Assembly: GCF_004152935.1 (NCBI RefSeq) | Contig: NZ_SETE01000002.1 | Span: forward strand, 372,001 to 436,000 | Source: Brumimicrobium glaciale | Lineage (GTDB): Bacteria > Bacteroidota > Bacteroidia > Flavobacteriales_D > Crocinitomicaceae | Length of the DNA stretch: 64,000 nt | Direction of reading: 5' to 3' | Part shown: positions 21,703 to 58,117 of the stretch, piece by piece | Numbering within the stretch: the first letter of the stretch is position 1 | Layout of the letters: each line of letters starts with the position of its first letter | Notes under the pieces: generated by a model | Seen by the model: only the letters and a program-made list of their open reading frames with translations | Databases searched by the model: none | Told to the model about the DNA's origin: nothing | Made by a program: the position numbers and the translations under genes

Positions 21703-21725
21703 AAATAACTTTAAACATATAATTC

Positions 21726-24923: not shown

Positions 24924-24971
24924 TGACAATTATTTTCAAAGGTTAGAAACTTACCATAGACTACAACAGAA

Positions 24972-32174: not shown

Positions 32175-35006
32175 ATGAACTTAACAGCAGGCCAAAGAAT
32201 AACTACCAGAGGTGAAGATTTTTTAATTACAGATCTCGTTACCAATCAGGATGGTTCTTTCATCATTGATGTAGAAGGGATTAGCGAACTTGTAAAAGGA
32301 AAGAAATTTTGCTTTGACACAAGCATTGATAAAGACATCAAACCTGTAGACCCCATAAACACAAAGTTTATTGCAGATACTGCAACAGGTTATAGAAAAT
32401 CTAAGCTTTATATTGAAACGCACATTCGTAATTCGACTATATTTTCAGATAAAATTGCAATAGCAAATAAAGGAGCGTTTAATACTTCTGAATACCAGCT
32501 GACGCCAACCTTAAAAGCTCTACAATTACCACGTCCTCGAATATTAATTGCAGATGGTGTTGGTTTAGGGAAAACCATTGAAGTTGGAATCTTCCTTACT
32601 GAATTAATGAAGCGAGGTAAAGGGAAAAGAATAATGGTTCTTGCTTTAAAATCTATTTTAGGGCAATTCCAGCAAGAAATGTGGAATCGTTTTGCAATTC
32701 CGTTGGTCAGATTAGACAGTGAAGGAATTGCACGAATTAAAACACAACTTCCTGCCAATAAGAATCCATTTGATTACTACGATAAGACGATAGTATCCAT
32801 AGATACACTAAAGAATAACGCAAAGTTTAGACATTACATTGAAAAATCTCACTGGGATGTCATCGTGATTGATGAATGCCATACTGTGGCGAATATAGAT
32901 AGCCAAAGAGGTGATTTAGCGCAGTTTTTGGCAAAGAAATGTCAGTCCTTGGTGCTGACTTCTGCTACTCCCCATAACGGGAGAAAAGAGAGTTTTGCAA
33001 ACCTCATCAATATGATTGAACCTACTGCAATCCCTAAGAGTGGGGACTACACCAAGAAAGATGTAGAACCTTACTACGTAAGAAGATTTAAAAACGATAT
33101 TGAAGATGCAGCAGTTCGCGATAACTTTCAAGAACGAGAGATTGTACGCTTACAAACCGATCTTTCTCCAGAAGAAATTGAATTTTTAAGATACCAACAG
33201 AATTTAAAGATTCAAGCTTTAGGAGCCTTAAAAAGAGGGAAGTCAAAAGAAGACTTTTTGTTTTCTATTATGATATTTAAAGCCTTTATGTCCTCCCCTA
33301 TTGCTGCTTTAAATTCAATTGAAAATAGAATAGAAAAAGTAAGTAATCTATCTTCAGTAAGTGACAAATACGAAGATAGTCTTGAGGTCCTAAAAGAACA
33401 CCAAAGATTATTAAAAAACATCTTAGATAAAGGTGCAGACAGTAAATACAAAAGGTTAAAAGAAAAACTGACTGATCTTAAATGGTCAGGTAAAAAGAAC
33501 GATGATCGATTTGTTGTTTTTGCTGAACGTATAGCTACCTTGGATTACTTGAAAGAAAAGTTGACAAAGGACTTTAATTTATCGGCAGATGCGATTGAAT
33601 CTTTTAGCGGAAGTGATAGTGATGTAGAACAACAAAAGAAAATCGAGGACTTTGGTCAAGGAGATAGCAAAGTGAGAATTCTATTGTGCTCTGATGCAGG
33701 TTCACAAGGTGTGAATTTACACTTTTACTGTAACAACATGGTGAACTATGATATTCCTTGGTCATTGATCACGCTTGAGCAACGTAATGGTAGAATTGAT
33801 AGATACGGTCAGAAGAAAGTGCCATACATCTATTACCTAGTTGCGCATACTGATGTAGAAGATATAAAAACGGATTTACACATTATAAATAAGCTTACGG
33901 TTAAAGAAGAAGAGGTGCATAAAACTTTAGGTGACGCTGGTTCTGTAATGCATTTATACGATTCAAATGAAGAAGAAAAGAAAACCATTGAAGCACTTGA
34001 AGAGGGAGATGAAAGCTTTTTGGATAAAGTAGAGAACTTTGACTACAGCTCACTTTTTGATGATAATGAAAACACTTCTGCTGTCATTACAGATAATCCT
34101 TACGAAGAAGCTGTTACGGTGTATGCGAATGATTACGCTTATTATAAACACTTATTCGCACAGTTAGAAAGTGCCAATTTGATTGATACCAATTCTTATG
34201 AATTCAATGAAACTGATGGCTATTTAGAGTTAGCCAATTCAAAAGAGCTAGACAGTATTTTATATGATATGCCACCTGAATCCAAACCAAAGGTGGGAGA
34301 ATTATTCAAATTAACCTTGGATAAGGATTTAGTACAAAAAGCAATTGAAGATTCAAGAAAGAAGAAAGGAACTTGGGCAGAGTTTCAAATTTTGTATGAT
34401 TTACATCCTGCGATTAAGTACTTTATGACCAAGCTTGAAGCCAGTGTTCCAAAAGATCAGGCTTTAGCGGTTAAAATATCTTCTAAATTCCCAAAAGGTT
34501 CTTCTTGGTATGTTTTACATGGACAGGTGTCCAATAACTTGGGCCAACCTGTAATTTCAGACTTTTTTGTCATTGGTTTTGACGGTGAGAAAGTAATTGA
34601 GAGTTTACCCATCGCCACTTTTATTGAAAAGTTTGAGTTAGATAAAGAGTTGTTTACCGAGGAAATAAGTGAAAAAGAATTGAAAAAACTTCACGACAAT
34701 CTTCCTTTAGTAATTGATTACGCTCAGGACGTTCAGATGAAAGAAAAACAAGATGATCTTGTAGATGTGATGCTTGATAAAGCAACAGAACACGAAGCAC
34801 ATTTAAACAGATGGAAAGCAACTTCTATACAGCAGTTAGAAATGCATTTTGAAGAAGTAGCAGATACCGTTTTTTCAAGAAAGAAAAAAGAGAATGAATT
34901 AGAAGAAATTGAAACCATTGCTTCTAGTTCTAGTCAATACATGAAAGACATGGTAGCATTGGATCAAGATGCATATATTAAAGTAATGGCAGTATTTTTT
35001 AATTAG
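32175..35006 (+). CDS. SNF2-type helicase, DrmD-like
   Basis: A 943-residue superfamily 2 ATPase. Motifs in order are Q-like entry, Walker A GVGLGKT with Lys133, DECH box at Asp233, TSATPHNGR, and in the second RecA lobe SDAGSQGVNLHF and LEQRNGRIDRYGQ. The pattern matches the RapA/DrmD branch of SNF2 ATPases, not replicative helicases. DrmD is the helicase of class 1 DISARM and sits next to an adenine methylase, as here: the methyltransferase gene starts 3 bases later. It most likely translocates on duplex DNA and controls access of the methylase or nucleases. It is the first gene of a six-gene operon. Confidence 0.88.
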   Translation: MNLTAGQRITTRGEDFLITDLVTNQDGSFIIDVEGISELVKGKKFCFDTSIDKDIKPVDPINTKFIADTATGYRKSKLYIETHIRNSTIFSDKIAIANKGAFNTSEYQLTPTLKALQLPRPRILIADGVGLGKTIEVGIFLTELMKRGKGKRIMVLALKSILGQFQQEMWNRFAIPLVRLDSEGIARIKTQLPANKNPFDYYDKTIVSIDTLKNNAKFRHYIEKSHWDVIVIDECHTVANIDSQRGDLAQFLAKKCQSLVLTSATPHNGRKESFANLINMIEPTAIPKSGDYTKKDVEPYYVRRFKNDIEDAAVRDNFQEREIVRLQTDLSPEEIEFLRYQQNLKIQALGALKRGKSKEDFLFSIMIFKAFMSSPIAALNSIENRIEKVSNLSSVSDKYEDSLEVLKEHQRLLKNILDKGADSKYKRLKEKLTDLKWSGKKNDDRFVVFAERIATLDYLKEKLTKDFNLSADAIESFSGSDSDVEQQKKIEDFGQGDSKVRILLCSDAGSQGVNLHFYCNNMVNYDIPWSLITLEQRNGRIDRYGQKKVPYIYYLVAHTDVEDIKTDLHIINKLTVKEEEVHKTLGDAGSVMHLYDSNEEEKKTIEALEEGDESFLDKVENFDYSSLFDDNENTSAVITDNPYEEAVTVYANDYAYYKHLFAQLESANLIDTNSYEFNETDGYLELANSKELDSILYDMPPESKPKVGELFKLTLDKDLVQKAIEDSRKKKGTWAEFQILYDLHPAIKYFMTKLEASVPKDQALAVKISSKFPKGSSWYVLHGQVSNNLGQPVISDFFVIGFDGEKVIESLPIATFIEKFELDKELFTEEISEKELKKLHDNLPLVIDYAQDVQMKEKQDDLVDVMLDKATEHEAHLNRWKATSIQQLEMHFEEVADTVFSRKKKENELEEIETIASSSSQYMKDMVALDQDAYIKVMAVFFN

Positions 35007-35009
35007 TAA

Positions 35010-38000
35010 GTGATGATAAAATTTATAAATAACATTGGTGACTTTTTCTCTTCCAACTACTATGATGAAGATTTTGTAAAAAAAGTTCATGAAAAATCTG
35101 GTTATAAATCAGAGGATCATAAAGGCTTGCAAAAACGAATTTCGCCACTAAAGGATAAATACTACCGTTATAAGCAAAACATTATTGAGGGAAGGTTAAG
35201 AACGAAAGATAAAATATACGAAACACATCAATTCCATTCACATTTGTTAAATGCATTGGGCTACGATGGAGATCACCATCAGTACAATGAACCTTTTCAC
35301 TTTTCTGAAAAAGAAGTACTTCCTGTAAGGCATAAATTGTACAGAGGAGATAAACTGCATTTAATTATTATGGAAATGCAGCCATTGATTAAAGAAGGAG
35401 ATGAAGAACCTGATGGTTTATTTGAACAACGCTATAATATAGAGGATGAAGAGCACGAATCGAAAGAACAACGCTATCACCGTGCACAATGGAGCCGTGT
35501 GTTTACTGTTCCTGATGAACTGAAAATTTCTCCAGTAATTATCAATAAGGCAATTTCTCAATTGAGCTTATTGGATCAAAAAGAAAGACCGCAATTCATT
35601 ATGTTATTGGCGGGAAATAAAATCTTTTTGGTGGAGGTGGAAAAATGGTTTAAAGGAGCGTATTTACAGCTTGACATAGAGGAACTGTTTTCGGAAGCGA
35701 CGATTGAACGTAAATACTATTCTCTTTTCTTCTTAATGCTCTCTAAAGAAATGTTAGCACCTGATAGTGAAATGGTACTGATGGATCAGTTGGAAGAAGA
35801 CAGTCATAAAAGTGCTTACGAAGTTACCAAAGACCTAAAGGAAGGAATTATACATGCAGTGGAAGCTTTGGCGAACGAAGCTTTGTATTACCGAAAAGAA
35901 AAGCTCGGTGAAAAATTTGATGAAACGGACGATTTATTCGAAAGTCAAGTGAAAGATGATTGTTTGAATATTGTGTACCGTCTGCTTTTTGTGTTTTATG
36001 CTGAATCAAGATCAGATTTAGACATTCTACCTATTTCTGATAGTGTTTACCAAAAAGGATACTCTTTGGAAATGCTACGTGATTTAGAGCAAACTCAATT
36101 GATTACAGATGCCAGTAGAAATGGATATTTCTTTCACGATTCTTTGAAACAACTGTTCGAATTGATGAGCAGGGGTTACCGTGAAAATGAAGATCAAACC
36201 ATACAACTTAAAGATGGAGAAGTTATATCTACGCTAAAGAATAAAAGTTTTAGAATTCGTCACATTGATTCCCCGATGTTTGATGACGATAAGTTGCTTC
36301 AACTGCGCAATGTGAAATTCAGAAATTACATTTGGCAAGATGTGATTTGTCAACTATCATTGTCTCGAGAGCAACGCGGTAAAGCCAGAGGTAGAATTTC
36401 TTACGCTAACCTTGGAATTAACCAACTGGGAAGCGTTTATGAAAGCTTACTCGCCTATAGAGGATTTTATGCCGAAGAAGATTACATTGAAGTACACCCA
36501 AAAAAGAAACCCAAAGAAGGAACTTTATTGGTGCAAAGAGCAAGAAGAGATGATTTCCATACAGATGAGGTATTGAAAGATGAGTCTGGGAAAGATGTGA
36601 TCATTCCGAAAGGACAATTTGTGTACCGCTTGAGCGGACGTGACAGACAGAAATCTGCTTCTTATTATACGCCTGAGGTGTTGACGCAAACTACAGTGAA
36701 GTACACGCTGAAATCTATTTTAGAGAAGGTGGAAAATGGGGAAATGAAAGCCCTTGAGTTACTGGATTTAAAACTCCTGGAACCAGCAATGGGAGCAGCT
36801 GCTTTCCACAATGAGTTGATTAACCAACTGGCTGAAGCTTATTTGAATTACCGACAAAAAGAGAAGAAAACGAAAATCTCTCCGGAGAAATACATTGAAG
36901 AACTTCAGAAAGTAAAAGCGTACATCGCAACGAACAATGCCTACGGAGTCGATTTAAACCCAACAGCTATTGAACTAGGGAAACTATCGCTTTGGCTGAA
37001 CGTAATTCATAAAGACATGGAAACGCCTTTCTTTGCCAACCGCTTGGCAGTAGGAAATGCAGTTGTTGGGGCTTGGTTTAAGGTATATACCGAAAAACAG
37101 CTGAAAAAGAAATGGTGGGAGAAAGCTCCGAAAATGTTGCAGTTAGGACCAGATGGGGATAAGCGAAAAAAGAATGAAGTTTATCACTTCTTATTGCCGG
37201 ACAAAGGAATGGTTCCCAGTGCTGGAATTAAATTATTGAAAGATGAATTTCCAAAACATGCCAATAGAGTAACGGAATGGCGTAAAGATGCCATTAAACC
37301 AATTTCTGAGACAGAGTTCCGCCAATTGCAAAATATATGTGATGCGATTGACGAGCAATTAGAAGCGTATTATATTTTCCAAAAACGATTAAACCTTCAA
37401 ACCAAGAATAAAGTTGATATATGGTGCGGTTATGAAATAGAGAGAAGAGATAAAGGTTTTCAAAAGAATTTAAACCTGCGTTCTTACGATGAAAAAGAAC
37501 AACTCAACGATCAACGTAATCGTCAATCTTCTCCGTATTATAAATTAAAAATGGTAATGGATTATTGGTGTAGTCTGTGGTTTTGGGATGTGCGGAAAGC
37601 AGAACATTTACCTACACGCCAACAGTATATAAATGATGTGGCAAATATCTTAAGGATTGACTTAACTCAAAAAGATAAAGTATTCAAAAAACAGCCTACC
37701 TCCTATTCCGAGAATAATCAAACAGCGTTATTTCACGAACCTTCTATTGGAGAACAAGCACAACAACAGATTATTGAAAAAACCGAAAAAAGCGACTTGT
37801 ATGACAACAAAGAACGTTTAGAAGAAGTAAAGAATTTAAGTGAACAATATCGATTCTTTCATAGTCAATTAGAGTTTGTTGAGGTCTTTAAAGAAAGAGG
37901 TGGTTTTGATGTGATTGTTGGAAATCCGCCATGGGTAAATATAACTATGGATGAAGCAGGGATTCTTTCTGAGAAAAATCCGGAAATATTTATTAGAAAG

Positions 38001-39815
38001 TTATCTGCCCCACAGATAAAAAAACAAGCAATAAAAATATTAAAAGAAAATGCAGATATAGAGCAAACATATATTACTGAAAATATGTGGGCTGAAGGAA
38101 CTAAAGAGTTTATAGGTGCCTTTCAGAATTACCCTTTACTTCAAGGTCAAAGAAATAATTTGTATAAAAGTATTTTAACCAATTCTTTTAATTTAGTTTC
38201 TAAAAATGGATTTTGTGGGCTGGTTCATCCTGAGGGAATATATGAAGATCCTAAAGCTAGTAATTTAAGAGAAAAAGTGTACCAAAGATTAAAATTTCAT
38301 TTTGAATTTAAAAATGCTTTATTCATTTTTAGCGAGGTTCATGACCAAATGAATTTTGGCATAAATATTTATCGTGGTTTTGAAGATGAAGTTGATTTTA
38401 TTTCAATTCATAACTTATATATCCCTCAAACCATAGATGGTATTTTTATAAGTAAACCAAGCCTCTTTACTGAAGGAAAGAAAATAAAAGATGATAATGG
38501 TAAATTTATTTGGAATACTAAACCTAGTTCTAATCGGAAGGTTAACATAAATGAAAGTGCATTGAAAATAATATATAATGCGTTCGGAACAGAAGAGGAT
38601 AATTATAATAATACAAAGTTAATTGAAGTACACTCTAATGAAGTATTGACTATCCTAACAAAATTAGGTAAATTACAAATGAAATTAGAAGACAAAATGA
38701 AATATTTTGTGACCATGTGCTTTAATGAAACAAACGGTGTTAAGGATGGCGTAATTAAAAGAAAAACAGAATATAGTAATTTTGAAAATAGTGCAGTAAT
38801 ATTTAGTGGACCTCACTTTTTCGTTTCAAATCCATTTAACAAAAATCCATATGAAGCCTGTAAGTTGAGTTCTCATTATGATGTTTTGGACCTTCAATCA
38901 ATAGACAAAGATTTCTTACCTAGAACAAATTATCAAAAATCATATAATTATTCAAATTACATTAATAAAATTATAACTCCATGGGGCTCGCAATGGGAAC
39001 AAGAATTTAAACTAGCTTTTAGTAAAATGCTAAACACTGCCAGTGAAAGAACTTTACAACCAGCAATCTTACCTTCAAATTCTTCACATATTGATGGTGT
39101 TATTTCGATTACTTATAAAAATGAAATAGAACTGTTAGAATCAGTTGGTCTATTTTCCTCAATCATTTATGACTTCTATATTAAAGCTTTAGGTAAGAGT
39201 AATTTATATGACGACACGTTAAGAACTTTAAAAATAGGTGTAGACGAACGATTCAAAAACTTTTTAATTTCTAGAGGTCTATTATTAAACAGCCTGAATT
39301 CTAATTATGCGAAGCTATGGGAGAGAAACTGGAATGATGATTTTAAAGTTGATTTTTGGAGCAAGAAAGATAATAGACTAACTCCTTTTGACAGCTTAGA
39401 ACCAAAGTGGGAATGGGATACACCTTTGCGTAATTGGTATGAACGCAGATGGGCTTTAGTTGAGATAGATGTAATATCTGCAATGGCTTTAAGCTTAACT
39501 TTAGAAGAGTTAATCTTAATTTACAACGTTCAATTTCCAGTTCTCCAACAAAACGAAGATGATACTTGGTATGACACCACAGGCAATATTGTATTTACTT
39601 GTTCCAAAGGTTTAACAGGCGTTGGTATAGACCGTCCAGTTTGGAACACCATAAAAGATTTAAAAGCAGGAGAAACCTACGAGCACACCATAGAGAAAAG
39701 TGAATTGTATTTCGGTAAAAAAATTACGTATTATGCACCGTTTGATAAATGTGATCGTGTAGAAGATTATAAGACTGCTTGGGCACATTTTGAGAAGGTA
39801 TTTAAAGAAGATTGA
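35010..39815 (+). CDS. Large N6-adenine DNA methyltransferase, PglX/DrmMI/Eco57I-like
   Basis: A 1601-residue protein. The catalytic motif IV is NPPW (Asn972-Trp975) in VIVGNPPWVNI. Motif I reads EPAMGAAAF (from Glu591) where most relatives have DPAxGSGxF, and YGVDLNPTAIELGKLSLWL is the following motif. The first 550 residues hold an Eco57I/type IIG-like N-terminal part with no clear nuclease motif, and residues about 1000-1600 are the target-recognition part. Very large size fits PglX and DrmMI proteins, which mark host DNA as self. Reading can start at GTG 35010 or ATG 35013. The altered motif I may lower SAM binding. Confidence 0.88.
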   Translation: MMIKFINNIGDFFSSNYYDEDFVKKVHEKSGYKSEDHKGLQKRISPLKDKYYRYKQNIIEGRLRTKDKIYETHQFHSHLLNALGYDGDHHQYNEPFHFSEKEVLPVRHKLYRGDKLHLIIMEMQPLIKEGDEEPDGLFEQRYNIEDEEHESKEQRYHRAQWSRVFTVPDELKISPVIINKAISQLSLLDQKERPQFIMLLAGNKIFLVEVEKWFKGAYLQLDIEELFSEATIERKYYSLFFLMLSKEMLAPDSEMVLMDQLEEDSHKSAYEVTKDLKEGIIHAVEALANEALYYRKEKLGEKFDETDDLFESQVKDDCLNIVYRLLFVFYAESRSDLDILPISDSVYQKGYSLEMLRDLEQTQLITDASRNGYFFHDSLKQLFELMSRGYRENEDQTIQLKDGEVISTLKNKSFRIRHIDSPMFDDDKLLQLRNVKFRNYIWQDVICQLSLSREQRGKARGRISYANLGINQLGSVYESLLAYRGFYAEEDYIEVHPKKKPKEGTLLVQRARRDDFHTDEVLKDESGKDVIIPKGQFVYRLSGRDRQKSASYYTPEVLTQTTVKYTLKSILEKVENGEMKALELLDLKLLEPAMGAAAFHNELINQLAEAYLNYRQKEKKTKISPEKYIEELQKVKAYIATNNAYGVDLNPTAIELGKLSLWLNVIHKDMETPFFANRLAVGNAVVGAWFKVYTEKQLKKKWWEKAPKMLQLGPDGDKRKKNEVYHFLLPDKGMVPSAGIKLLKDEFPKHANRVTEWRKDAIKPISETEFRQLQNICDAIDEQLEAYYIFQKRLNLQTKNKVDIWCGYEIERRDKGFQKNLNLRSYDEKEQLNDQRNRQSSPYYKLKMVMDYWCSLWFWDVRKAEHLPTRQQYINDVANILRIDLTQKDKVFKKQPTSYSENNQTALFHEPSIGEQAQQQIIEKTEKSDLYDNKERLEEVKNLSEQYRFFHSQLEFVEVFKERGGFDVIVGNPPWVNITMDEAGILSEKNPEIFIRKLSAPQIKKQAIKILKENADIEQTYITENMWAEGTKEFIGAFQNYPLLQGQRNNLYKSILTNSFNLVSKNGFCGLVHPEGIYEDPKASNLREKVYQRLKFHFEFKNALFIFSEVHDQMNFGINIYRGFEDEVDFISIHNLYIPQTIDGIFISKPSLFTEGKKIKDDNGKFIWNTKPSSNRKVNINESALKIIYNAFGTEEDNYNNTKLIEVHSNEVLTILTKLGKLQMKLEDKMKYFVTMCFNETNGVKDGVIKRKTEYSNFENSAVIFSGPHFFVSNPFNKNPYEACKLSSHYDVLDLQSIDKDFLPRTNYQKSYNYSNYINKIITPWGSQWEQEFKLAFSKMLNTASERTLQPAILPSNSSHIDGVISITYKNEIELLESVGLFSSIIYDFYIKALGKSNLYDDTLRTLKIGVDERFKNFLISRGLLLNSLNSNYAKLWERNWNDDFKVDFWSKKDNRLTPFDSLEPKWEWDTPLRNWYERRWALVEIDVISAMALSLTLEELILIYNVQFPVLQQNEDDTWYDTTGNIVFTCSKGLTGVGIDRPVWNTIKDLKAGETYEHTIEKSELYFGKKITYYAPFDKCDRVEDYKTAWAHFEKVFKED

Positions 39816-39817
39816 TT

Positions 39818-40561
39818 ATGGAGGAACCTACTAAAAGTTGGATACAAGATATTAAGAATAGTATGACGTCTATTCAAGAGACATATAAAGAATATCAAGG
39901 TATGATACTCACTGAAGGTGATTTAGAATGCCATGTATTTAATGCGCTCATGGCACAAGAAAATTTAAAAGGTTATCATAATTCCAAAGGTAATTCTTTA
40001 GGTTTTATTGTGGATGAAGGTGAACGGAAAACATCTTTTGTTCATTCACAGGTTACTTGGTTTAAGGAGAATGAGAAATCTGGTTTTGAAGTTGATTTAA
40101 CTATTGGTAGCCCAGCGCTATTAGAAGTTGTTAATATTGAGCTTTTTGAAGAGTACACTAGTAAAGGTTTCGCGTATGACGGACCAGCTGTAGCAATAGA
40201 GTTGAAATTTATTAGAAGAAAAGATAAAGCATCACAAACAGCTCATGAGGATCTCCTTAAAATAATGAATAGACTAATTCCTGCCAAATACGCAAATATT
40301 GAAAACGATAAATATGAAATAAGCTCTAAAAATAATGTCGCATTTGTATCAATTGTTGGATGCAAAGATGAAGAAACTTATAATCTATCAAAATATTATC
40401 TTGGTAAACATCTTATGCTTACAAAAGGAGAGGCACAGGACAATTTATTTGTTTGTTTATTCAGTCCAGAAAAAATCACATGGTGTAAATTTGATATGAT
40501 TGCTGAGTACAATAGAGTTGAGTCAGAAGAAAAAAACAAAAGACAACAGAAAGCCTTGTAA
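39818..40561 (+). CDS. PD-(D/E)XK-like nuclease
   Basis: A 247-residue protein. A possible active site is Asp93 (GFEVDLTI) with Glu128-x-Lys130 (VAIELKFIRRK), the spacing expected for the restriction-endonuclease fold; an upstream helix with Glu (TEGDLECHVFNAL) could supply the remaining acid. No other domain is seen. ATG at 39818 is preferred over a TTG six bases earlier, and it lies 2 bases after the methyltransferase stop, so the two are coupled. It could be the cutting subunit for the methylase and helicase, or a repair-type nuclease. The family is not one I can name. Confidence 0.72.
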   Translation: MEEPTKSWIQDIKNSMTSIQETYKEYQGMILTEGDLECHVFNALMAQENLKGYHNSKGNSLGFIVDEGERKTSFVHSQVTWFKENEKSGFEVDLTIGSPALLEVVNIELFEEYTSKGFAYDGPAVAIELKFIRRKDKASQTAHEDLLKIMNRLIPAKYANIENDKYEISSKNNVAFVSIVGCKDEETYNLSKYYLGKHLMLTKGEAQDNLFVCLFSPEKITWCKFDMIAEYNRVESEEKNKRQQKAL

Positions 40562-40670
40562 AACAGTATTAAGAAATTTAACTAACCGAACCAACCTTAA
40601 GTAATTTAAAAGGTATCAGATAATTTATTTCCCTGTAACGACTTACCAGTAAAGTTTAGAATTAGAAATT

Positions 40671-42401
40671 ATGACAGAAATTAAAAAAAACAAAGTTCAA
40701 TTATACTTTGACTATTATGTAGCACATCATGAGCCGAAACTTGAAAACTGGTATCGTGGATTGACAAAATACATAAATATTGTACAGGCAATAAAAAAAA
40801 CATTGCAAGCGGAAGAGAACTTCGCTGAATTGTCAATAGAAGACCAAGAGTCAAAACTAAATGAAGTTTTTGCAGAATGTTCTGCTAATGAAATCACAAA
40901 TACTGAATCGTTTTTAGAAAGATACATTTTTCTACAAGGTAATGGTGTGGGAGATGTAAGTCAAGGAGTGGTTTGGGATACTGAAAAAAATCCACACAAA
41001 AAAATAATTAGAGAGAATGCATCTGCTTTATTACTTTACAACATCTTGGTTGAGGATGATCGTGTAGAAACGGATAAAAAAATCGATGAATTGTTGAAAA
41101 TGGATAAAAATCAGTTTGCTGTTAAAAACCGGTTTATCAGAACTTTACATCCACATACTTTTGGCTCGCCAGATGCTAATGGAAAAATGGATAGGTTGCT
41201 TAGTGTTTTAGATACTAAATTAGGAGTTACTGTTTCGGGAAGCACTCCAATTGAAAAACATGATGAATTATGTAAATTAATCGAGACGGATGATCCTGCT
41301 TTAAGACAAATGTTTACATGGGAACTTTACTATATGCTTAATGATGAGTTGGATTTAAAAAAAGCGATTGTTTATTATGGAGCGCCTGGAACAGGAAAAA
41401 CATTTATCTCAGATATAAATGCTAGAAAATATATTGACCTGCATAGAATAAAAGTGGGAAGGTCTGTTTTAAATGATTACAGTATTCAAACTGTTCAGTT
41501 TCACCCAAGTTATTCTTATGAAGACTTCTTCGAAGGAATTCGTCCAACTGAAGATGGGAAGTTGAAATTGTTTAATGGTACATTTAAACAGTTTTGCAAG
41601 GATAACAGTATTCTTGAAAGAGCATTGTACAAATCAGATGATTTTATTGAAAATAAAAAATTTAAAAAATTGGAATATGATTTTTCACAAATCCGTATAA
41701 ATGATCTTAACGATGAACAAAAGAAAATTTTAGGATGTAATGATAAGGAGTTTGCCACTGAGCTAACAATTCAAGATTGGATTGAACCGGCTTTTTTCAT
41801 CATAGACGAAATTAATAGAGCAGAACTTTCTAAAGTTTTTGGAGAATTAATGTTGAGCCTTGAATACAGAGGTGTAAAAGGAAAGATAAAAACTCAGTAC
41901 GCTCATTTATGTAAAAATAAAAACGATGATTCTGCTTTTTATTTTGAGGATGATCAAAACTGGTTCTTTGTACCTCAGAATATATATCTAATTGGAACAA
42001 TGAATAATATTGATAGATCTGTAGATACTTTTGACTTTGCGTTGAGAAGACGTTTTATGTGGGAGGAAGTTCATCCGAATTATTCTGTAATTAAATCTGT
42101 ATTGATGTCCTCAGGGAGAGGATGGAGCTATGAAGATTGTAAAAACCTTTCAGATTCATTACTGCGTCTTAATAATCTAATTGAGGGTGATGAGATTCTA
42201 GATAAGAACTACCGCATTGGACAATCTTATGTTTTAGAGTTGCGAAAAACAAATCGTGATCGGTATGATTCTATTGTTAAAGCTAAAGAGTTTTTATGGG
42301 GAAGCTTTATACAACCATTATTGGAAGAATATTTAAGAGGTTTAGGAGATGAAAAAAAATCCAATGAAAAAATTCAAAGGTTTAGAAATTCATTTGTTTA
42401 A
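40671..42401 (+). CDS. mcrB: McrB-like AAA+ GTPase/ATPase
   Basis: A 576-residue protein. The first 215 residues are a helical N-terminal region, not the methyl-DNA-binding domain of E. coli McrB. The AAA+ module follows: Walker A GAPGTGKT (Gly237-Lys243), the McrB-specific FHPSYSYEDFFEGIRP, Walker B FFIIDEINRAEL, and the NxxD signature MNNIDRS at about 445, then the arginine-finger region LRRRF. McrB hexamers translocate DNA and activate the McrC nuclease. The McrC-like gene follows after 3 bases. The gap of 109 bases before this gene may hold a second promoter. The N-terminal region probably decides what DNA is recognised. Confidence 0.9.
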   Translation: MTEIKKNKVQLYFDYYVAHHEPKLENWYRGLTKYINIVQAIKKTLQAEENFAELSIEDQESKLNEVFAECSANEITNTESFLERYIFLQGNGVGDVSQGVVWDTEKNPHKKIIRENASALLLYNILVEDDRVETDKKIDELLKMDKNQFAVKNRFIRTLHPHTFGSPDANGKMDRLLSVLDTKLGVTVSGSTPIEKHDELCKLIETDDPALRQMFTWELYYMLNDELDLKKAIVYYGAPGTGKTFISDINARKYIDLHRIKVGRSVLNDYSIQTVQFHPSYSYEDFFEGIRPTEDGKLKLFNGTFKQFCKDNSILERALYKSDDFIENKKFKKLEYDFSQIRINDLNDEQKKILGCNDKEFATELTIQDWIEPAFFIIDEINRAELSKVFGELMLSLEYRGVKGKIKTQYAHLCKNKNDDSAFYFEDDQNWFFVPQNIYLIGTMNNIDRSVDTFDFALRRRFMWEEVHPNYSVIKSVLMSSGRGWSYEDCKNLSDSLLRLNNLIEGDEILDKNYRIGQSYVLELRKTNRDRYDSIVKAKEFLWGSFIQPLLEEYLRGLGDEKKSNEKIQRFRNSFV

Positions 42402-42404
42402 GAT

Positions 42405-43823
42405 ATGATAGCTTCAGAATATTTTAAAAATCATATCACTGACAATGACTATCGTTTGAATAGGATAGCGGATAGTATTGAGTTAACTAAAAACTTTAAT
42501 TGTTCTACTTATAATAAGGCACGAAAAAATTATGGCCTTATAAGAAGAGAGGGCATTGAGGTTTTTTTACAAGGTATAAGAGAAAACATTGAAACATATG
42601 ATCTAAGCTCTTCAATAATTAATTTTATAAATCGGGATGAAGAGTTTGATGTTAATCAAGATCAAAAAGTCATTGAAATCATAGGTAATTCATATGATAC
42701 TTTTAAAATCAAGACAGGAAATATAGTAGGGTCGTTTATTTATAAGGGCAATCAGCTTAACATCAATTGTCGTTTTGGGAATTCCTTTTTGGAATACATG
42801 ATTGCCAATACTAGTGGTTTTATTGAATTAGAAAACTTCGGTGGTAAAAGCGATGATTTAGGTTTAGGAGAGTGGATAATGATTTTATATTGGAGAATGC
42901 TTTTAAAGAAAGCATTTACTCTAGGGATGTATAAAAATTATAAAAGTATTACAGAAGATATTTCTACAGTGAGAGGTGCTATTGAGATTAATGACTTTAT
43001 TAAAAAACCTTTTTTTAACGGAAAAACCACCTGTACCTTTAAGGAACATAGCTATGAAAATAATATAAATAGAATTATTAAACAGGCTATTGCAAAGGTT
43101 GCTAAATCAAAATACAGCAATTTAATTAATGATATAATTGATATCAAAAGAGCTTATGATAATGTTCATTTTGAAAATGACAGAAAACGAGATTTATCTA
43201 CTAGAGTTAAAAACCCCTATTACCAAAAGTATAATGAGGTTTATAATTTATCAAAAAACATCATCGACGATAACTTTTTAAGTTATAACAATCCTAAAAG
43301 TGATTTCTCAGCTTTCATCTTCGATATTTCCTTATTGTTTGAACATCATATTCGTAAAGTTCTTAATCAAGAATTTACTATCCATCAGAAAAATAAAAAA
43401 GAATTTAAAGTTCCAAACGGAATAGATGAAAATAATTTATTCCCAGACGTTATAATTGATTACGGAGATAATAAAATCGGAGTATTTGACGTGAAATACA
43501 AACGATTCCGTGTTGATGGTAAAGATAAAGGAGTGAATCGAGAGGACAGGTTCCAATTAATTACTTATTTGGCTTCATATACTAGTACTTATGAGGTTGT
43601 TAATTCTGGTTTTATTTATCCTTGCGAAGAACATGAGCATGAGAGATTAGTAAACAGTGTTGGTGAGCAGCAACAATATGTGGCTGTAGGAAAGTGTGAA
43701 ATCCCCTTCAATATTTACTTTTATAAAGTTACTAAAGAATATGATACTCAAAGAAGTTATGATAAGGGCTTCTCAAAAGAGTTTTGTTGTTTTGAAACTG
43801 AAAAAGAATTTAAAATTGTATAA
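42405..43823 (+). CDS. mcrC: McrC-like nuclease subunit
   Basis: A 472-residue protein matching the McrC family: an N-terminal part that docks to McrB, a central stretch STVRGAIEINDFIKK followed by CTFKEHSYENNINRIIKQA, and a C-terminal PD-(D/E)XK nuclease with Asp348 in LFPDVIID and Asp362-x-Lys364 in VFDVKYKRF. The active site is therefore intact. It forms the endonuclease half of the McrBC pair with the upstream gene. Confidence 0.85.
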   Translation: MIASEYFKNHITDNDYRLNRIADSIELTKNFNCSTYNKARKNYGLIRREGIEVFLQGIRENIETYDLSSSIINFINRDEEFDVNQDQKVIEIIGNSYDTFKIKTGNIVGSFIYKGNQLNINCRFGNSFLEYMIANTSGFIELENFGGKSDDLGLGEWIMILYWRMLLKKAFTLGMYKNYKSITEDISTVRGAIEINDFIKKPFFNGKTTCTFKEHSYENNINRIIKQAIAKVAKSKYSNLINDIIDIKRAYDNVHFENDRKRDLSTRVKNPYYQKYNEVYNLSKNIIDDNFLSYNNPKSDFSAFIFDISLLFEHHIRKVLNQEFTIHQKNKKEFKVPNGIDENNLFPDVIIDYGDNKIGVFDVKYKRFRVDGKDKGVNREDRFQLITYLASYTSTYEVVNSGFIYPCEEHEHERLVNSVGEQQQYVAVGKCEIPFNIYFYKVTKEYDTQRSYDKGFSKEFCCFETEKEFKIV

Positions 43824-43826
43824 ACT

Positions 43827-46800
43827 ATGCTACCATTACAACAAGCCTACGAGGTAAAACAGTCCATCATTGAATACTTAAAAGCTACATTTAGCTTTAA
43901 GGAAAAGAAGGTGTCTGATGCTTTTTACAACTTTATAGAAGATCCAAAAGAAGGAATCTTTAAAGGACCTTATGTTTCATTGAAATTACCTTTTGAAACT
44001 GCCGCTTCGAATGAAGAAATGCCTTTAGAAATTTCACCTAACTTCTCAGCTTATAAGCACCAGTTTGAGGCGTTTAAAAGATTGCATACAAAAGATGGAC
44101 ATCAACCAAAACCTACCTTGTTAACAACAGGAACAGGTTCGGGTAAAACGGAGTCCTTCTTATTCCCTATTCTAGACTATTGTCACAAACACAAGGATGA
44201 AAGAGGGATAAAGGTAATTATATTATATCCTATGAATGCTTTGGCAACCGATCAAGCCAAACGTTTGGCAGAGTTGATTCATGGGGATGAAAGGTTGAAT
44301 GGTAAAATTACAGCAGGCTTGTTTATTGGGGAAGGGAAAGACAAATCGAAGTTTCCAAAGAACATGGGAGAAACCCATATCATTGAAAACAGAGATGAAA
44401 TCATTAGTAATCCGCCTGATATCTTGCTAACCAACTTTAAGATGTTGGATTACGGTTTAATGCGTCACAACTTTCATCAGCTCTGGACACACAATTTTGA
44501 TAATCCTGAGTTGCTGCGTTTCTTGGTATTGGATGAATTACACACCTATGATGGAGCACAAGGAACAGACGTTGCTAATCTTATTCGTAGGTTGAAGCTT
44601 AAATTAAATACGCCGAAAAATCATTTATGTCCTGTAGGAACTTCTGCGACCATTGGTAAAGGAGAAGATTCAGTTAAATTGTTGACCGAATATGCTTCGG
44701 ATGTTTTTGGAGAGCATTTCACAGCTGATTCCGTAATCATTGAACACCGATTGAGTTCAGATCAGTTTTTTACCATACCAGATGAAGAATTGGATACTTT
44801 TATTCCTCGAATTGTTGGCTTACAGCAAAGTAGATTGGGTATAAATGAAAACTATGTAGATTACGTTATTCGCCAAAAGAAATTATGGCAATTACCTGAA
44901 AATATTGATGCCTATAATCTATCGAAGGAACTAAAAAAACTAAAAGTTGTAAAAGACATTTCGCGTGTTTTATCTGATAAAATTGTCTCCATAGCTGATT
45001 TAATCGAAGGCGTTGAAGCCATCAATCCAGAGTTTAAAAGATTAGCAGAATACGAAGCAGAGGGTGACTTTTCGCCAAAAGAGGAAGTGATAACTTCTAT
45101 ATTAGCATTGGTTGCTGAAGCAAAATCAGATGAAGAGGGAAGATTTCCATTTTTGTTTCTTCAAATTCAGATTTGGGTAAGAGAAATGAGTGGTTTGTTG
45201 AGAGAATTCAATGAAGAACCAACATTCACTTGGAGAGATAAAATTGTTGGAAAAGAACATAATGCAGCTTTACCTCCTTATTTCTGTAGAGAGTGTGGCG
45301 CGAGCGGATGGTTAGCGGTAAAACATGACAACAGAAATCAATTTGAGCTAGATCCTTTAGAAGTTTATGAACAGTATTTTACGAATCATAAGAACATATA
45401 TTTTACAAACACCCATGAAGAAGCACATTATGGGATAGATGAATATGATCCAACAACTACAATTACACCTTTCGTCCATCAAGTAGATTTAAAACACATG
45501 GATCACATCACCGAACAGCGTATGCACATGATTGCATACCGGAAGGTGAAAGACCAAAAGAACATTCATACCTGTCCAGAATGTAATTCTGCAAACGACA
45601 TGAGTATCATCGGTACACGTATAGCTACTTTGAATTCAGTTTCTATCAGTCAAATCCTATCCTCTGATTTAGATGAACGAGGAGAAAAGTACCGTAAGGT
45701 ATTGGCTTTTACGAATGGAGTACAAGATGCTGCGCATCATGCAGGTTTCGTAGAAGCAAGAAACTACCGTTTTACATTCAGAGCATCTTTACAAAAAGTG
45801 ATTAATCACATTGGAAAACCAGTTGATTTAGAAACTTTAAAAGATGAGTTTATCAGCTATTGGAAAAGCAATTCTGATCCTCAAGAAGCGAATCATTTAG
45901 AAGCTTATTTCTACCGTTTCTTTCCTTCAGATTATATTGGGAAAGCACAAGTAGAAGATTACCGTAATCCAAATACCAATTCATTTTCTAAAGCTTTTGA
46001 GAAAGAATTTGACACCCGAATTCATTGGGAGATATTATCTGAATTTGGATACAATGCTTCCATTGGACGAACATTAGAAAAAACAGGTTCTTCAGCAGTG
46101 AGTTTTAACAAAGAACTCTTTGAATCTACTTTTGATGACATGCTGGACTGGATGCAGGCCAATATGTTGAGTAGTATTGAAAAGGAACAGTTTGTTAAGT
46201 TTTTAAATGGAATTCTGCACCGCATGAGAAAACGTGGAGCCATAGATCATGAGTTCCTATCTAAGTTCAGAACGAATGAATTGAAACTATGGGATTTGAA
46301 TTGGATGAGAGATTCAAGACACTATTTAAATAAAAACTTTGGTCCAAAATCAAGAATTCCAAAATTGATTAGTAACGGTGTACATACCAGAGGAGTTTTA
46401 GACACTACATTTGCCAAGACAACCAATTGGTATCATTCCTATTTCGCGAAGAGTTTCCAATTGACTGTGGTAAATAATGCTGTTATCAATGAGTTCTATG
46501 AATTGTTATTTGATAAACTAACATTCAACGGTCTAATGAGTCAGCAAGTGACTAAAGAAGGAGAGAACTATGCGCTACTTCCTGAAAACATAAAGGTGAG
46601 TAACAAAGTCGCTAATTATCATTGTGATACGTGCTCTTCAACTTTACAAGTTACAGAAGGAGACGATATGACTTTAGATACTTCTTGTTTAGGTTATCGT
46701 TGTTCAGGACATTATAAAAAGTCTGAAGAGAATAAGCTCAATTATTATAATCTGATTTACAACAGAACAAACTCTCCTAGAATATATGCAGCAGAACATA

Positions 46801-49799
46801 CCGGTGTTTTAGAAAGATCTGTTAGAGAACATACAGAGTCAGACTTTAAAGAGCGACCAAAATATAACTCATTAAATACATTAATTGCAACATCTACTTT
46901 AGAAATGGGAATTGATGTAGGGTCATTGAACACAGCTATAAATACAAGTGTCCCTCCCCTCCCATCCAACTTCTTACAAAGAGTTGGGCGTGCAGGGCGT
47001 TCATCAGGAACCGCTCTAATAGAAAACTTCGCACAGAACAAAGCGCACGACTTGTTCTATTATGAAGAACCTTTAGAAATGATGGAAGGAGACATTGCTA
47101 CGCCAGGATGCTTCTTAAATGCAAAGGATATATTAATTCGTCACTTTACAGCCTATTGTTTTGATAGTTGGACCAAGGATGATCCAGAACGAAACCGTAT
47201 TCCTGGAATGATAAAATCATTGAATCTTCTTAAAACGAAAACTACTGATACTTCGTTTTTTATTAATCAATTAATAAGTTTTGTCTTTGACAATCAAAAA
47301 GAACTTTTCGATAATTTCATAGCTGTTTATGATGGAAAAGTTGACGTAGAGTTAATCGAAACAATTAAAACGAGTTTTAAACAAGGCGCTTTTCAACGCA
47401 AAATATTAGATGTTTTTGAAGATTTAAGAAAAGAAATCTTCTTCCTCATTGAAAAAGAGAAAGAGATTGAAGAATTCATTAAAGACAAGGATTTAGGAAA
47501 AGAAGATGATGAACGCAAGTTGCTCGAACAAGAGATAAAATCTTTGTGGCAGCTAAAAAAGTCATTAGAATTAAGACAAGTAATTGAGCACTTAACGAAT
47601 GTCGGTATTCTTCCAAATTATGCTTTCCCTGAAACAGGGGTAACTCTGAATGCCCATGTTTATGGCTTTAAACCAGAGGGAGCTGAGCAGGATCCAGTAA
47701 ATCAATCCTACGAAATTATTCGTTCAGCAACTGGTGCTTTAAAAGAATATGCACCGGACAACTTCTTCTATAGCCAAGGAAATAAGTTGGAAATTACAGG
47801 CCTTAACACTTATGATTGGAGTGGTCAAAAGTCAAGTTTAGTTACCATGAGGTTTTGTTCTAATTGTGATCATTTAGAAGAAGATGTAAAAGCAGAAAAA
47901 GGAGCTTGTCCAAAATGTGATCATGAATCGTGGAATTCTGCATCCAACAAACATAGGTTTGCAAAGCTTCATTCGGTAAAATCAGTTAATTCAAGAAATA
48001 AATCTGCTTTAAACGATTCCAAAGACGAAAGAGAGCAAAAAAACTATCGCATTTCAACTCATTTCAAATTCAATCCAAATACGATTGAAGGAACTTGGGG
48101 AATGACGAAGATTCCTTTTGGAATTGAGTACGTGAAAGATGTTGAGTTAACTCAAATCAATTTAGGAGCTGGGGTTCCACATTCAAACCACTTGACCATA
48201 AATCAACACGAGGAAATTGCTCGTCATGGTTTTGTTACCTGCAGACATTGTGGTAAATCAACTTCTAAACCACGAGAAGTACACCAGTTTGAAAATAAGA
48301 AATTTCACTATGGCTACTGTAAGCACAAAGAGGAACAATATAACAATATCACTGATGACATTTTTGAAGAAGTTTTCCTCTACCGAAGTGTAAGAACCGA
48401 GGCAATAAAAATAATACTTCCAGTTCAAGAGTTTCTAAATGAAGCAACTCAGCTTATGTTTCAGTCAGGCCTCCAATTGGGATTAAAGAAATACTACAAT
48501 GGAAATCCAGACCATGTTGCATTCGAGTTTTACTCAGAATACAACAAAGCAAACGATCGATTTGATAGGTATTTAGTAATGTATGATACAGTTCCTGGAG
48601 GAACAGGTTATCTCCAAAAACTTTTTAATCCTATTGAGTTTACTAAACTATTAAAAGGAGCTTATGAAAGCATCAGAGACTGTTCATGTAAAGATAACGG
48701 AAAGGACGGTTGTTACAGATGTATTCTCTCTTATGGAAATCAATACACAAGAGAAGATCTTAGCCGTGAAGGAGCTGAAGAATTATTTGGTAGAATAGTT
48801 CGCGCAGCAGGAAAAAAAGATTGGGAAGAAATCACCCAAGGGATATCTTCACTAACCAAGACAGGAATGATTGAGGAAAGTGAATTGGAACTAAAGTTTA
48901 TTCATGCGCTTAGAAAGTATGTGAAAGGTCAGAAAAACACTAAGTACACCTTTGAAGACAAGAAAGAAAACGGTAAAGTTGCATACCACTTAGGACTTCC
49001 AATTAAAGATGGTAAAATTACATATTTGATAAAACCCCAACTTCTATTAGGAGAAAAAGACGGTGTAGGAATTGATACAAGAACAGACTTTTACATCAAA
49101 TGCATTCAGTTGGAACGAAATGGTGAAATTATCGAAGATATTGATGAGCTTTTAGCATATAAGGAAGTAGCGATATACCTTGATGGCTACACTTACCACG
49201 CTTCAGATAAACACATGCGCTTCTATAATGATTTAGCCATTAGAAACGAAATTAACGCTACTCCGAATATTAAGTCATGGTCATTAGGCTGGTCAGATGT
49301 AGTGATTTTAGAATCAACAAATGATGAAGATAAATTAGATGAGTTATTCGTGTCAAAAAATCGATACAACGATTCAATTAAAAAACTAAAAACCTTACCA
49401 GCTACTTCCATCTTAACAGCGGGTTTATGGGAAACTAAAAACTCAATCGAACGCTTATTATGGTATTTACAGAACAGTAATTCATCACAAATAAAAAGTG
49501 AAGTGGGCTTACTGCTCCTTTCATTTCAAGAAGAGTTTGGTAAAAAGGCCTATTCGCTTCTTAATGCTGAAAAGTTGATAAATGGAGACCTAGATGTCGA
49601 AATGGCATCTATCAATGGTGATTCCTATTTGTTATCAGACTTAACAGAGGCCAATGATTTATTTAAGTTTACAGCTTTAGCCAGATTGAAAGATTTTGAT
49701 GTATTGACTGGTTTGAAAGTAGAGCAGCTTGAAAAGATTGATAAGGTGATGTGGGAGAGGTTTTTGAGGTTGTATAGTTTGATTGGGGTTATCAGTTAA
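43827..49799 (+). CDS. 1990-aa DEAH helicase with DUF1998 and Vsr-like nuclease tail, DruE-like
   Basis: Helicase lobe 1 has Walker A TGTGSGKT with Lys107 and the DELH box at Asp236 followed by TSATIG; lobe 2 has TSTLEMGIDVG and QRVGRAGR. Between and after are several zinc knuckles (CRECG, CPEC, CSNC, CRHCG). A DUF1998 region ends in CSCKDNGKDGCYRC (Cys1619, 1621, 1629, 1632). The last 300 residues contain Asp1754 (DTRTDFYIK) and Asp1786 with His1791 (YLDGYTYHA), which match Vsr-like restriction-fold nucleases. Size and domains fit DruE of Druantia; a fusion of DrmA and DrmB of DISARM is the alternative. It closes the operon, 3 bases after mcrC. Confidence 0.88.
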   Translation: MLPLQQAYEVKQSIIEYLKATFSFKEKKVSDAFYNFIEDPKEGIFKGPYVSLKLPFETAASNEEMPLEISPNFSAYKHQFEAFKRLHTKDGHQPKPTLLTTGTGSGKTESFLFPILDYCHKHKDERGIKVIILYPMNALATDQAKRLAELIHGDERLNGKITAGLFIGEGKDKSKFPKNMGETHIIENRDEIISNPPDILLTNFKMLDYGLMRHNFHQLWTHNFDNPELLRFLVLDELHTYDGAQGTDVANLIRRLKLKLNTPKNHLCPVGTSATIGKGEDSVKLLTEYASDVFGEHFTADSVIIEHRLSSDQFFTIPDEELDTFIPRIVGLQQSRLGINENYVDYVIRQKKLWQLPENIDAYNLSKELKKLKVVKDISRVLSDKIVSIADLIEGVEAINPEFKRLAEYEAEGDFSPKEEVITSILALVAEAKSDEEGRFPFLFLQIQIWVREMSGLLREFNEEPTFTWRDKIVGKEHNAALPPYFCRECGASGWLAVKHDNRNQFELDPLEVYEQYFTNHKNIYFTNTHEEAHYGIDEYDPTTTITPFVHQVDLKHMDHITEQRMHMIAYRKVKDQKNIHTCPECNSANDMSIIGTRIATLNSVSISQILSSDLDERGEKYRKVLAFTNGVQDAAHHAGFVEARNYRFTFRASLQKVINHIGKPVDLETLKDEFISYWKSNSDPQEANHLEAYFYRFFPSDYIGKAQVEDYRNPNTNSFSKAFEKEFDTRIHWEILSEFGYNASIGRTLEKTGSSAVSFNKELFESTFDDMLDWMQANMLSSIEKEQFVKFLNGILHRMRKRGAIDHEFLSKFRTNELKLWDLNWMRDSRHYLNKNFGPKSRIPKLISNGVHTRGVLDTTFAKTTNWYHSYFAKSFQLTVVNNAVINEFYELLFDKLTFNGLMSQQVTKEGENYALLPENIKVSNKVANYHCDTCSSTLQVTEGDDMTLDTSCLGYRCSGHYKKSEENKLNYYNLIYNRTNSPRIYAAEHTGVLERSVREHTESDFKERPKYNSLNTLIATSTLEMGIDVGSLNTAINTSVPPLPSNFLQRVGRAGRSSGTALIENFAQNKAHDLFYYEEPLEMMEGDIATPGCFLNAKDILIRHFTAYCFDSWTKDDPERNRIPGMIKSLNLLKTKTTDTSFFINQLISFVFDNQKELFDNFIAVYDGKVDVELIETIKTSFKQGAFQRKILDVFEDLRKEIFFLIEKEKEIEEFIKDKDLGKEDDERKLLEQEIKSLWQLKKSLELRQVIEHLTNVGILPNYAFPETGVTLNAHVYGFKPEGAEQDPVNQSYEIIRSATGALKEYAPDNFFYSQGNKLEITGLNTYDWSGQKSSLVTMRFCSNCDHLEEDVKAEKGACPKCDHESWNSASNKHRFAKLHSVKSVNSRNKSALNDSKDEREQKNYRISTHFKFNPNTIEGTWGMTKIPFGIEYVKDVELTQINLGAGVPHSNHLTINQHEEIARHGFVTCRHCGKSTSKPREVHQFENKKFHYGYCKHKEEQYNNITDDIFEEVFLYRSVRTEAIKIILPVQEFLNEATQLMFQSGLQLGLKKYYNGNPDHVAFEFYSEYNKANDRFDRYLVMYDTVPGGTGYLQKLFNPIEFTKLLKGAYESIRDCSCKDNGKDGCYRCILSYGNQYTREDLSREGAEELFGRIVRAAGKKDWEEITQGISSLTKTGMIEESELELKFIHALRKYVKGQKNTKYTFEDKKENGKVAYHLGLPIKDGKITYLIKPQLLLGEKDGVGIDTRTDFYIKCIQLERNGEIIEDIDELLAYKEVAIYLDGYTYHASDKHMRFYNDLAIRNEINATPNIKSWSLGWSDVVILESTNDEDKLDELFVSKNRYNDSIKKLKTLPATSILTAGLWETKNSIERLLWYLQNSNSSQIKSEVGLLLLSFQEEFGKKAYSLLNAEKLINGDLDVEMASINGDSYLLSDLTEANDLFKFTALARLKDFDVLTGLKVEQLEKIDKVMWERFLRLYSLIGVIS

Positions 49800-57013: not shown

Positions 57014-58117
57014 CTATTTCGAGGTTTCGAAAAGCGAAATCAATTTACCACAAAGTTCTTCAAGTTTTGTAGTATTGTCCTTTTTAGAAATTTTGGATTT
57101 TGACAAGCTTTCATATTTTGGAATATTTCCTGGCTCATTCATCCCTTTAAACTTAACCTTAAAACAATGAGAGGCTACAAACCATTGTTGTTGAGTGTCC
57201 AATTTTTGGATCGAATTAGATTGTGCCATTGTTCTTGTGAAAATTTTCAAATCCCACGGAGTACCCATCCAGTAGACCTTATCAGAAGGAGGGATTTCTT
57301 TGCCAATAAAAAGATTTAGGAATTCGATTTTCTTCACAGAATTACATATAAAACCAAAATTCACAAAGTCATTAAATATTTTTGTTACAGGAAAATTAAA
57401 ATCTTCATGGTTAAAATTCTTATAACGGTGAATTGCTTTATCAGAGTAAAACGTTTTGTATAATAAAATATTTTCCTTTTTAAAAGTATAATTATTATTG
57501 ATTTTCAATTTGGATTCAACCCCTCTAGCTGTGTCTTTATTATCAGAGAATTTAACCATAAAAAAATCACTCCTTTTATCTAAGTAGGTTTTTATTTTGT
57601 TTATTTCAGCAGCAGCAAAAGTACCACCGCCTGCTATTACATCTAAGAATGACTTTAAAATATTACATTTTTTTTGAAAAAGAATTAATGAAATAAATTG
57701 TTTAAATACTTCTCTTCTGACCTTATCAAATTCATTCCTATTTAAAATCTCATAAGTCGGAAATGCAATATTAAAAGAAGTAGGTATTTGGTATATTTTT
57801 TTCTCTCCTTTCATCACCTTTGAAGGAGCCTGATTCATTCGTAAAACTCCTCCACTAACTAATTCTTTATAAATTGATTCATATGTATGTATAGAGTTGA
57901 GCTTTAGGTTTAAACTCTCGCCTTTAAGATATGTCTCATTTAGAGTTTTAAATAAAGGTTTTTTCAATAACTCAATGAGTATAGACTCTTCAGTTAATAC
58001 CTTTGAATGATGCTTAAGTTTATCAAAATTGACGAATCCATCTTCAATCAATTCAGATTGAATACTATTCTTATATGAATTCGTCAGTCTTTTTAATATT
58101 TCGTAGAAATCAATCAT
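57014..58117 (-). CDS. Hypothetical element protein
   Basis: A 367-residue cytoplasmic protein, coupled to the integrase (stop and start overlap as TAATG). The sequence is Lys-rich and mostly helical in the first half, with no family I recognise. It is common to find one such gene directly behind an integrase in Bacteroidota elements. No nuclease, HTH or relaxase motif can be pointed to. Confidence 0.6.
   Translation of the reverse strand: MIDFYEILKRLTNSYKNSIQSELIEDGFVNFDKLKHHSKVLTEESILIELLKKPLFKTLNETYLKGESLNLKLNSIHTYESIYKELVSGGVLRMNQAPSKVMKGEKKIYQIPTSFNIAFPTYEILNRNEFDKVRREVFKQFISLILFQKKCNILKSFLDVIAGGGTFAAAEINKIKTYLDKRSDFFMVKFSDNKDTARGVESKLKINNNYTFKKENILLYKTFYSDKAIHRYKNFNHEDFNFPVTKIFNDFVNFGFICNSVKKIEFLNLFIGKEIPPSDKVYWMGTPWDLKIFTRTMAQSNSIQKLDTQQQWFVASHCFKVKFKGMNEPGNIPKYESLSKSKISKKDNTTKLEELCGKLISLFETSK

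Follow-up and report, generated by a model that had tools for sequence, protein, structure and literature searches.

A McrBC module between armB and armC of a predicted ARMADA type II-lineage operon in Brumimicrobium glaciale

Closest described systems

ARMADA systems (PMC12458937; Bell et al. 2025, preprint) comprise a BrxHII-like helicase (ArmA), a PglX-like methylase (ArmB) and a YprA helicase (ArmC). Type II systems additionally contain ArmD, a GajB-like helicase with a RelE-like domain that 'almost always' follows ArmC, and their gene order is stressed as strict (PMC12458937). Protection was reported to be direct and non-abortive and to depend on the ATPase and methylase motifs, with ArmD being required in E. 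coli (PMC12458937). A term search of the article text of this preprint retrieved no mention of inserted or accessory genes. The type IV restriction enzyme McrBC has been noted to be commonly associated with a DISARM-like system, with details deferred (PMC11090510, Bell et al. 2024), and this statement is repeated in the introduction of PMC12458937; the article text of PMC11090510 describes no placement of McrBC within ARMADA.

Defence genes embedded in other defence operons are known under the term 'guilt-by-embedding' (PMC12988326). GmrSD, Schlafen and other second-layer nucleases have been described within or beside BREX operons (PMC12839542, Rakesh and Krishnan 2026), and a two-layer logic was shown for BREX combined with BrxU (PMC8565348) and proposed for TgvAB, which is embedded in a type I restriction-modification (RM) operon (PMC11411939). 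The locus analysed here resembles such BREX loci in that second-layer nucleases lie in or beside a methylation-based defence operon, but the BREX core is built from PglZ and BrxC, and a term search of the text of PMC12839542 found ARMADA, YprA and McrBC unmentioned. It shares with TgvAB the insertion of a type IV enzyme into a methylating system, whereas the TgvAB host operon is of the type I RM kind and its cargo is GmrSD-like. ARMADA, McrBC, their association and the embedding of defence genes in BREX and type I RM operons are already known, whereas no description of a cargo slot between armB and armC was found in a literature search of article text (mostly open-access, without figures or supplements).

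The six-gene locus and its ARMADA-like core

The window, a stretch of 64,000 nucleotides from B. glaciale (contig NZ_SETE01000002.1, positions 372,001 to 436,000), contains six long, intact and co-directional open reading frames (ORFs) on the + strand between positions 32175 and 49799, located in an AT-rich stretch. The genes are spaced by 3, -4, 109, 3 and 3 nt. Gene 2 starts with GTG; the listed start of gene 3 is a TTG that overlaps the end of gene 2, and an in-frame ATG at 39818 leaves a 2-nt gap instead. With the latter start, the head-to-tail layout given in the original prediction (gaps of mostly 2-3 bases and one of 109) was confirmed. Promoter and terminator scans scored no better than shuffled sequences, and the six genes apparently share one transcription unit.

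Gene 1 (32175..35006; 943 aa) encodes an ArmA-like SNF2 helicase of the BrxHII/RapA type (Pfam SNF2 and helicase C) and gene 2 (35010..39815; 1601 aa) an ArmB-like N6-adenine methylase of the PglX/DrmMI type (Eco57I-type N6-methylase, PF07669). They are followed by three genes referred to as cargo, encoding a putative PD-(D/E)XK-like protein (gene 3, 39812..40561; 249 aa), a McrB-type AAA+ GTPase (gene 4, 40671..42401; 576 aa; AAA_5) and McrC (gene 5, 42405..43823; 472 aa; McrBC family PF10117, E=1.5e-40). Gene 6 (43827..49799; 1990 aa) encodes an ArmC-like YprA helicase with DEAD and MZB/DUF1998 matches and a C-terminal putative nuclease region. In PADLOC-DB 2023, the best match of gene 1 among the best 25 of 32 families was DrmD (322 bits), with DrmA next and HmaA at 185 bits, and gene 6 matched DruE models at 327 bits versus 68 bits for DrmA among the best 25 of 37 families. 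For gene 2, where the list of families was complete as for genes 3-5, the REase_MTase_IIG model PDLC03614 matched over its full length (E=0), and DrmMI scored 185 bits.

Reference proteins were taken from the ARMADA II region of E. coli ATCC 8739; PMC12458937 tested this strain and one other. Gene 1 shows 34.6% identity to ArmA over 957 columns, gene 2 37.5% identity to ArmB over 1484 columns and gene 6 31.1% identity to ArmC over 1909 columns (834 bits); all three are collinear with their counterparts over nearly the full length and lie in the order A-B-C. At all six positions mutated in the ARMADA study, the window has the same residue in pairwise alignments to the ATCC 8739 proteins. These are the Walker residues K133 and D233 of gene 1 (ArmA K136 and D236), G595 and N972 (NPPW) of gene 2 (ArmB G605 and N971), and K107 and D236 of gene 6 (ArmC K110 and D234). 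The residue numbers in PMC12458937 refer to strain NCTC 12900, and the positions landed on the expected motifs in ATCC 8739. Near the C-terminus of gene 6, D1754, D1786 and H1791 are invariant across six ArmC sequences; the label of this region as a Vsr-type nuclease is taken from PMC12458937. Genes 3-5 matched no protein of the ATCC 8739 ARMADA locus in a protein comparison.

Judged by sequence homology, genes 1, 2 and 6 are assigned to an ARMADA type II-lineage core, which is not called a complete type II system because ArmD is absent. The locus thus agrees with ARMADA type II in the homologues of ArmA, ArmB and ArmC, their order and their catalytic residues, and differs from it by the lack of ArmD and by three unrelated genes that separate armB from armC. 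Two other assignments were rejected. Membership in Druantia is contradicted by the ArmC match of gene 6 (834 bits), compared with three short segments and at best 110 bits to DruE of the neighbouring system Druantia III, and by DruH, to which none of the six genes matches. The kinship to Hma proposed earlier was not upheld, as the HmaA match of gene 1 (185 bits) lies below that to DrmD (322 bits), with neither HmaB nor HmaC among the families listed.

ArmC matches were found in 10 of 395 genomes of a phylum sample and in 5 of 395 genomes of a class sample, the genome of the window being counted in both. A scan of a genome collection yielded at least 565 confirmed loci, the best 80 of which were kept by similarity to the ArmC of the window; loci are given below by G or L numbers. 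The two closest loci with a complete set of core genes are G142 and G505 (52-63% identity in ArmA, ArmB and ArmC), in which the order is armA, armB, variable genes, armC, armD. The order armA, armB, armC recurs in relatives and is thus beyond chance. Identity matrices calculated for ArmA, ArmB and ArmC correlate with rho values of 0.83-0.90 (35 loci; none of 999 permutations as high), as expected for genes travelling together.

ArmD was not found in the window. Five ArmD queries, among them the partial E. coli protein and those of clade mates (61-66% mutual identity), gave nothing below an E value of 0.08 while positive controls matched, and a genome-wide search with one query gave nothing at E 0.001. 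When the scored loci are limited to the 46 whose downstream sequence reaches 2 kb, ArmD is missing from two, the window and L073, the latter with an empty slot; the unscored loci L042, L044, L048 and L108 likewise have no ArmD directly after armC. An ORF of 369 aa downstream of gene 6 (49926-51035) was considered as a substitute and rejected, given that it has no Pfam, PADLOC, PHROGs or NCBIfam match and no relative among the ORFs of other ARMADA loci. Since ArmD is absent here and yet needed in E. coli, the core may have a different mode of action or impaired function. The system in the window either works without ArmD, or has cargo that stands in for it, or is impaired.

A gene for a tyrosine integrase (58117..59235, - strand; PF00589, PF13102) adjoins mnmE, which was named by eye. 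Together with HTH, DUF5906 and DUF6371 genes, it occupies positions 53800-59235 beside mnmE, which appear to be the remains or the end of an integrated element. The integrase site is possibly the end of an island carrying the operon; this setting fits the report of ARMADA on integrated elements (PMC12458937). A second copy of the attachment site was not found within the window. Two further features of the window were observed. On the + strand at 16934-25919, a run of genes for a VWA-like protein (by eye), Tubulin_2, a papain-family protease carrying a large region at its N-terminus and Exo_endo_phos could be another conflict-type operon. Positions 63506-63874 hold a short tandem repeat in the ORF translations that is open on both strands.

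Cargo genes and the armB-armC junction in relatives

The gene families originally predicted were recovered by Pfam for the SNF2 helicase, the N6-methylase, McrB, McrC and the helicase/DUF1998 protein. For gene 3, which had been called a PD-(D/E)XK nuclease, a D...ExK pattern (E35, D95, E130, K132) is conserved in three homologues; the corresponding fold was not confirmed by AlphaFold models of two sequences (mean pLDDT 42). Gene 3 had no significant family match in Pfam, PADLOC, PHROGs or NCBIfam, and its queries retrieved nothing from viral contigs, plasmids or the PDB. Gene 4 retains GAPGTGKT and MNNIDRS (NxxD) motifs, which are kept in two relatives at 41% identity, and the PD...DxK residues of gene 5 are conserved across three McrC sequences. 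NCBIfam equivalog cut-offs were not reached for McrB or McrC (gene 4 scored 117 bits against the McrB model, under its cut-off of 637). In terms of sequence, genes 4-5 fit the features of McrBC type IV restriction: McrB is an AAA+ protein with NxxD and McrC has PD-(D/E)XK residues. They share these features with the NxxD branch of McrBC (PMC11090510), from which the locus differs by the presence of gene 3 upstream. The third-position GC content (GC3) is 0.29-0.30 in the core genes 1, 2 and 6 and 0.22-0.24 in the cargo genes 3-5.

Core and cargo also occur apart. McrB-McrC pairs with the same 3-nt spacing were found on a Vibrio coralliilyticus plasmid (41 and 32% identity) and in G476 (41 and 35% identity), and no ARMADA genes were detected around them in the stretches fetched. 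A contig scan of the genome collection with McrB alone gave no match. A relative of gene 3 lies in the ARMADA slot of G505, directly before two GmrSD-type genes. Another one with 53% identity, in G025 (L130:14731-15444), has no ARMADA gene detected nearby, and gene 3 was accordingly rejected as an ARMADA core gene. In G025, this relative is followed by ORFs of 366 aa and then 224 aa, the first of which looks like DUF262 by eye; they may form a small restriction module. Profiles of McrB and McrC had no match among the ORFs in any of the 90 other locus sets, so McrBC cargo is rare in this sample and was discarded as a common cargo of ARMADA II, and the gene 3 profile matched only in G505 among the ORFs of these sets. 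On this comparative evidence, genes 3-5 are assigned to a separable restriction module, presumptively restrictive in function, between armB and armC.

The variability of this position was assessed in a set of loci that had been picked for similarity to the ArmC of the window and is thus non-random. A junction was scored if its two genes were detected in the same orientation, and it was considered filled if the gap exceeded 400 nt. Gaps of this size were found in 1 of 42 armA-armB junctions, in 26 of 53 armB-armC junctions (window included) and in 2 of 76 armC-armD junctions, one of the latter two reflecting a split armC; the armB-armC slot is empty in the other 27 loci. Among the rows listed, no junction gap falls between 302 and 728 nt, so that the 400-nt threshold matters little. 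Fisher tests on the junction gaps gave p values of 1e-7 and 2e-10, which are rough because the loci are related and were chosen by similarity to the window. For the armB-armC junction, 53 of 90 locus sets were scored, in which armB precedes armC in the same orientation. In the remaining 37, the contig ended early or no armB was detected in the flank (e.g. L044, L048, L098, L100 and L102). L033 was dropped from the junction counts because it lies on the same contig as G484, and G215, G278 (= L073) and G344 (= L048) were not added. In E. coli, the armB-armC junction is uninterrupted in all 40 records listed of 518. On viral contigs, the slot is filled in L133, L134 and L135 and empty in L132, L136 and L137, with two distant matches not scored.

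Slot contents were analysed through 55 listed ORFs (40 searched against Pfam and 20 against PADLOC). By manual count, 13 of the 26 filled slots include a gene clearly related to a known defence family. Apart from the window, these carry AbiEii and DUF6088 (G142), GmrSD-type genes (G505, twice, L062 and L068), Tiamat-like TmtA (L032, L035, L038 and L043), Schlafen AlbA_2 (G484, L043 and L047), full-length Mokosh MkoA (L080) or OLD-like PDC-M07A (L090). Protein kinases were found in L066 and L111. Other or weaker matches comprise Hsp70 (L051), a helicase (L049), DprA (L095), a 5'-nucleotidase (L092), an M78 peptidase (L081) and a weak PDC-M28-like ATPase (L069), and the single slot ORFs scanned in L106 and L109 had no Pfam match. 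L089 and L094 were counted as filled by gap length; their slot ORFs look spurious, and neither slot has a credible gene. In 19 of the 26 filled loci, L089 and L094 among them, the final cargo ORF stops at most 50 nt from armC.

Two slots stand out as separate observations. In L064 (605-9516), seven ORFs lie between armB and armC, possibly a Zorya-like system inside ARMADA; the six that were scanned gave a borderline MotA/ExbB match as well as OmpA, dynamin, YjcZ and patatin matches. The actinobacterial slots of L089 (8102-9311) and L094 (8883-9339) contain imperfect direct repeats, for which Rfam returned no match.

In an ArmC tree (FastTree) of 86 sequences, which came from the search with the window and from E. 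coli type II and did not include a type I reference, the window forms a clade with G142, G505 and L032 (support 1.0). Its four members carry four different cargoes: McrBC in the window, AbiE in G142, two GmrSD-type genes in G505 and a Tiamat-like gene with AAA_11 in L032; the cargoes of the window and G505 do overlap in gene 3 and its relative. The armB-armC junction of ARMADA II is probably a slot in which other defence modules recur as cargo, a judgement that applies jointly to this reading and to the layered defence set out below.

Layered defence and alternative readings

McrBC cuts DNA bearing modified cytosine. The original prediction of one enlarged six-gene system is replaced by an ARMADA part (genes 1, 2 and 6) and a separable McrBC cargo (genes 3, 4 and 5). 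Separable units were indeed found in related genomes, as nested modules and not as the first three and last three genes. We consider it likely that an ARMADA II-lineage core has been loaded with a separable McrBC module at the armB-armC junction, that this junction serves as a recurrent cargo slot and that the two parts provide layered defence. Homology, gene order, conserved catalytic residues and the separate occurrence of core and cargo are directly seen in the sequences; the proposed mechanism would run as follows. ArmB would mark self DNA by N6-adenine methylation, and ArmA and ArmC would translocate on unmarked invading DNA and process it. McrB, as a GTP-driven ring, and McrC, as the nuclease, would together cut DNA containing modified cytosine. 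Phages that evade the methylation-based ARMADA through cytosine modification would then meet McrBC, and host DNA methylated on adenine by ArmB would not itself be attacked by McrBC. Layered defence, with ARMADA directed against unmarked DNA and McrBC against modified-cytosine DNA, is the most likely function, judging from the ARMADA experiments (PMC12458937) and the known chemistry of McrBC, and BREX with BrxU and TgvAB in a type I RM operon are published parallels.

A more far-reaching version, which we regard as tentative and rather unlikely, is that armB-armC constitutes a true exchange slot, in which whole modules are swapped and read from the ARMADA transcript, and that McrBC made ArmD dispensable in the lineage of the window.

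Alternatively, all six genes could form one integrated machine, with McrB, McrC and gene 3 serving as a nuclease arm of the core that replaces the lost ArmD. The absence of ArmD from the window, the 3-nt spacing around McrC and ArmC and the appearance of a single transcription unit agree with this idea. It is nevertheless improbable, because the clade mates G142, G505 and L032 retain ArmD together with other cargo, a relative of gene 3 as well as McrB-McrC pairs were found at sites without a detected ARMADA gene, and L073 lacks ArmD although its slot is empty. It is also quite doubtful that the locus is a decaying island, with a non-functional ArmD-less ARMADA and McrBC as its sole active part: ArmD, essential in E. 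coli (PMC12458937), is absent, but the core ORFs have no interruptions and retain their catalytic residues. The kinship of genes 1 and 2 to class 1 DISARM that had been predicted was confirmed by their DrmD and DrmMI matches, as was the fusion of helicase and DUF1998 in the last protein, which are separate genes in DISARM (PMC12458937). Yet a class 1 DISARM variant is hardly credible, since class 1 membership needs separate DrmA and DrmB plus DrmC, neither DrmB nor DrmC is among the matches listed, and gene 6 fuses helicase and MZB/DUF1998, favours DruE over DrmA and aligns with ArmC over nearly its whole length.

On the preferred reading of a core with separable cargo and layered defence, core and cargo together can pass for one new system, as the PADLOC 2023 labels (DrmD, type IIG RM and DruE) illustrate. 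ARMADA was named only recently (2025) and the order of its type II genes was called 'strict'. Since the armB-armC junction has content in about half of the scored relatives, much of it known defence modules, it offers an easy route to the discovery of new defence genes. The variation at this position also serves as a natural experiment for asking why methylation-based defence is combined with enzymes that attack modified DNA. If the armB-armC junction were a true exchange slot, ARMADA would represent one mobile defence operon carrying a replaceable second weapon.
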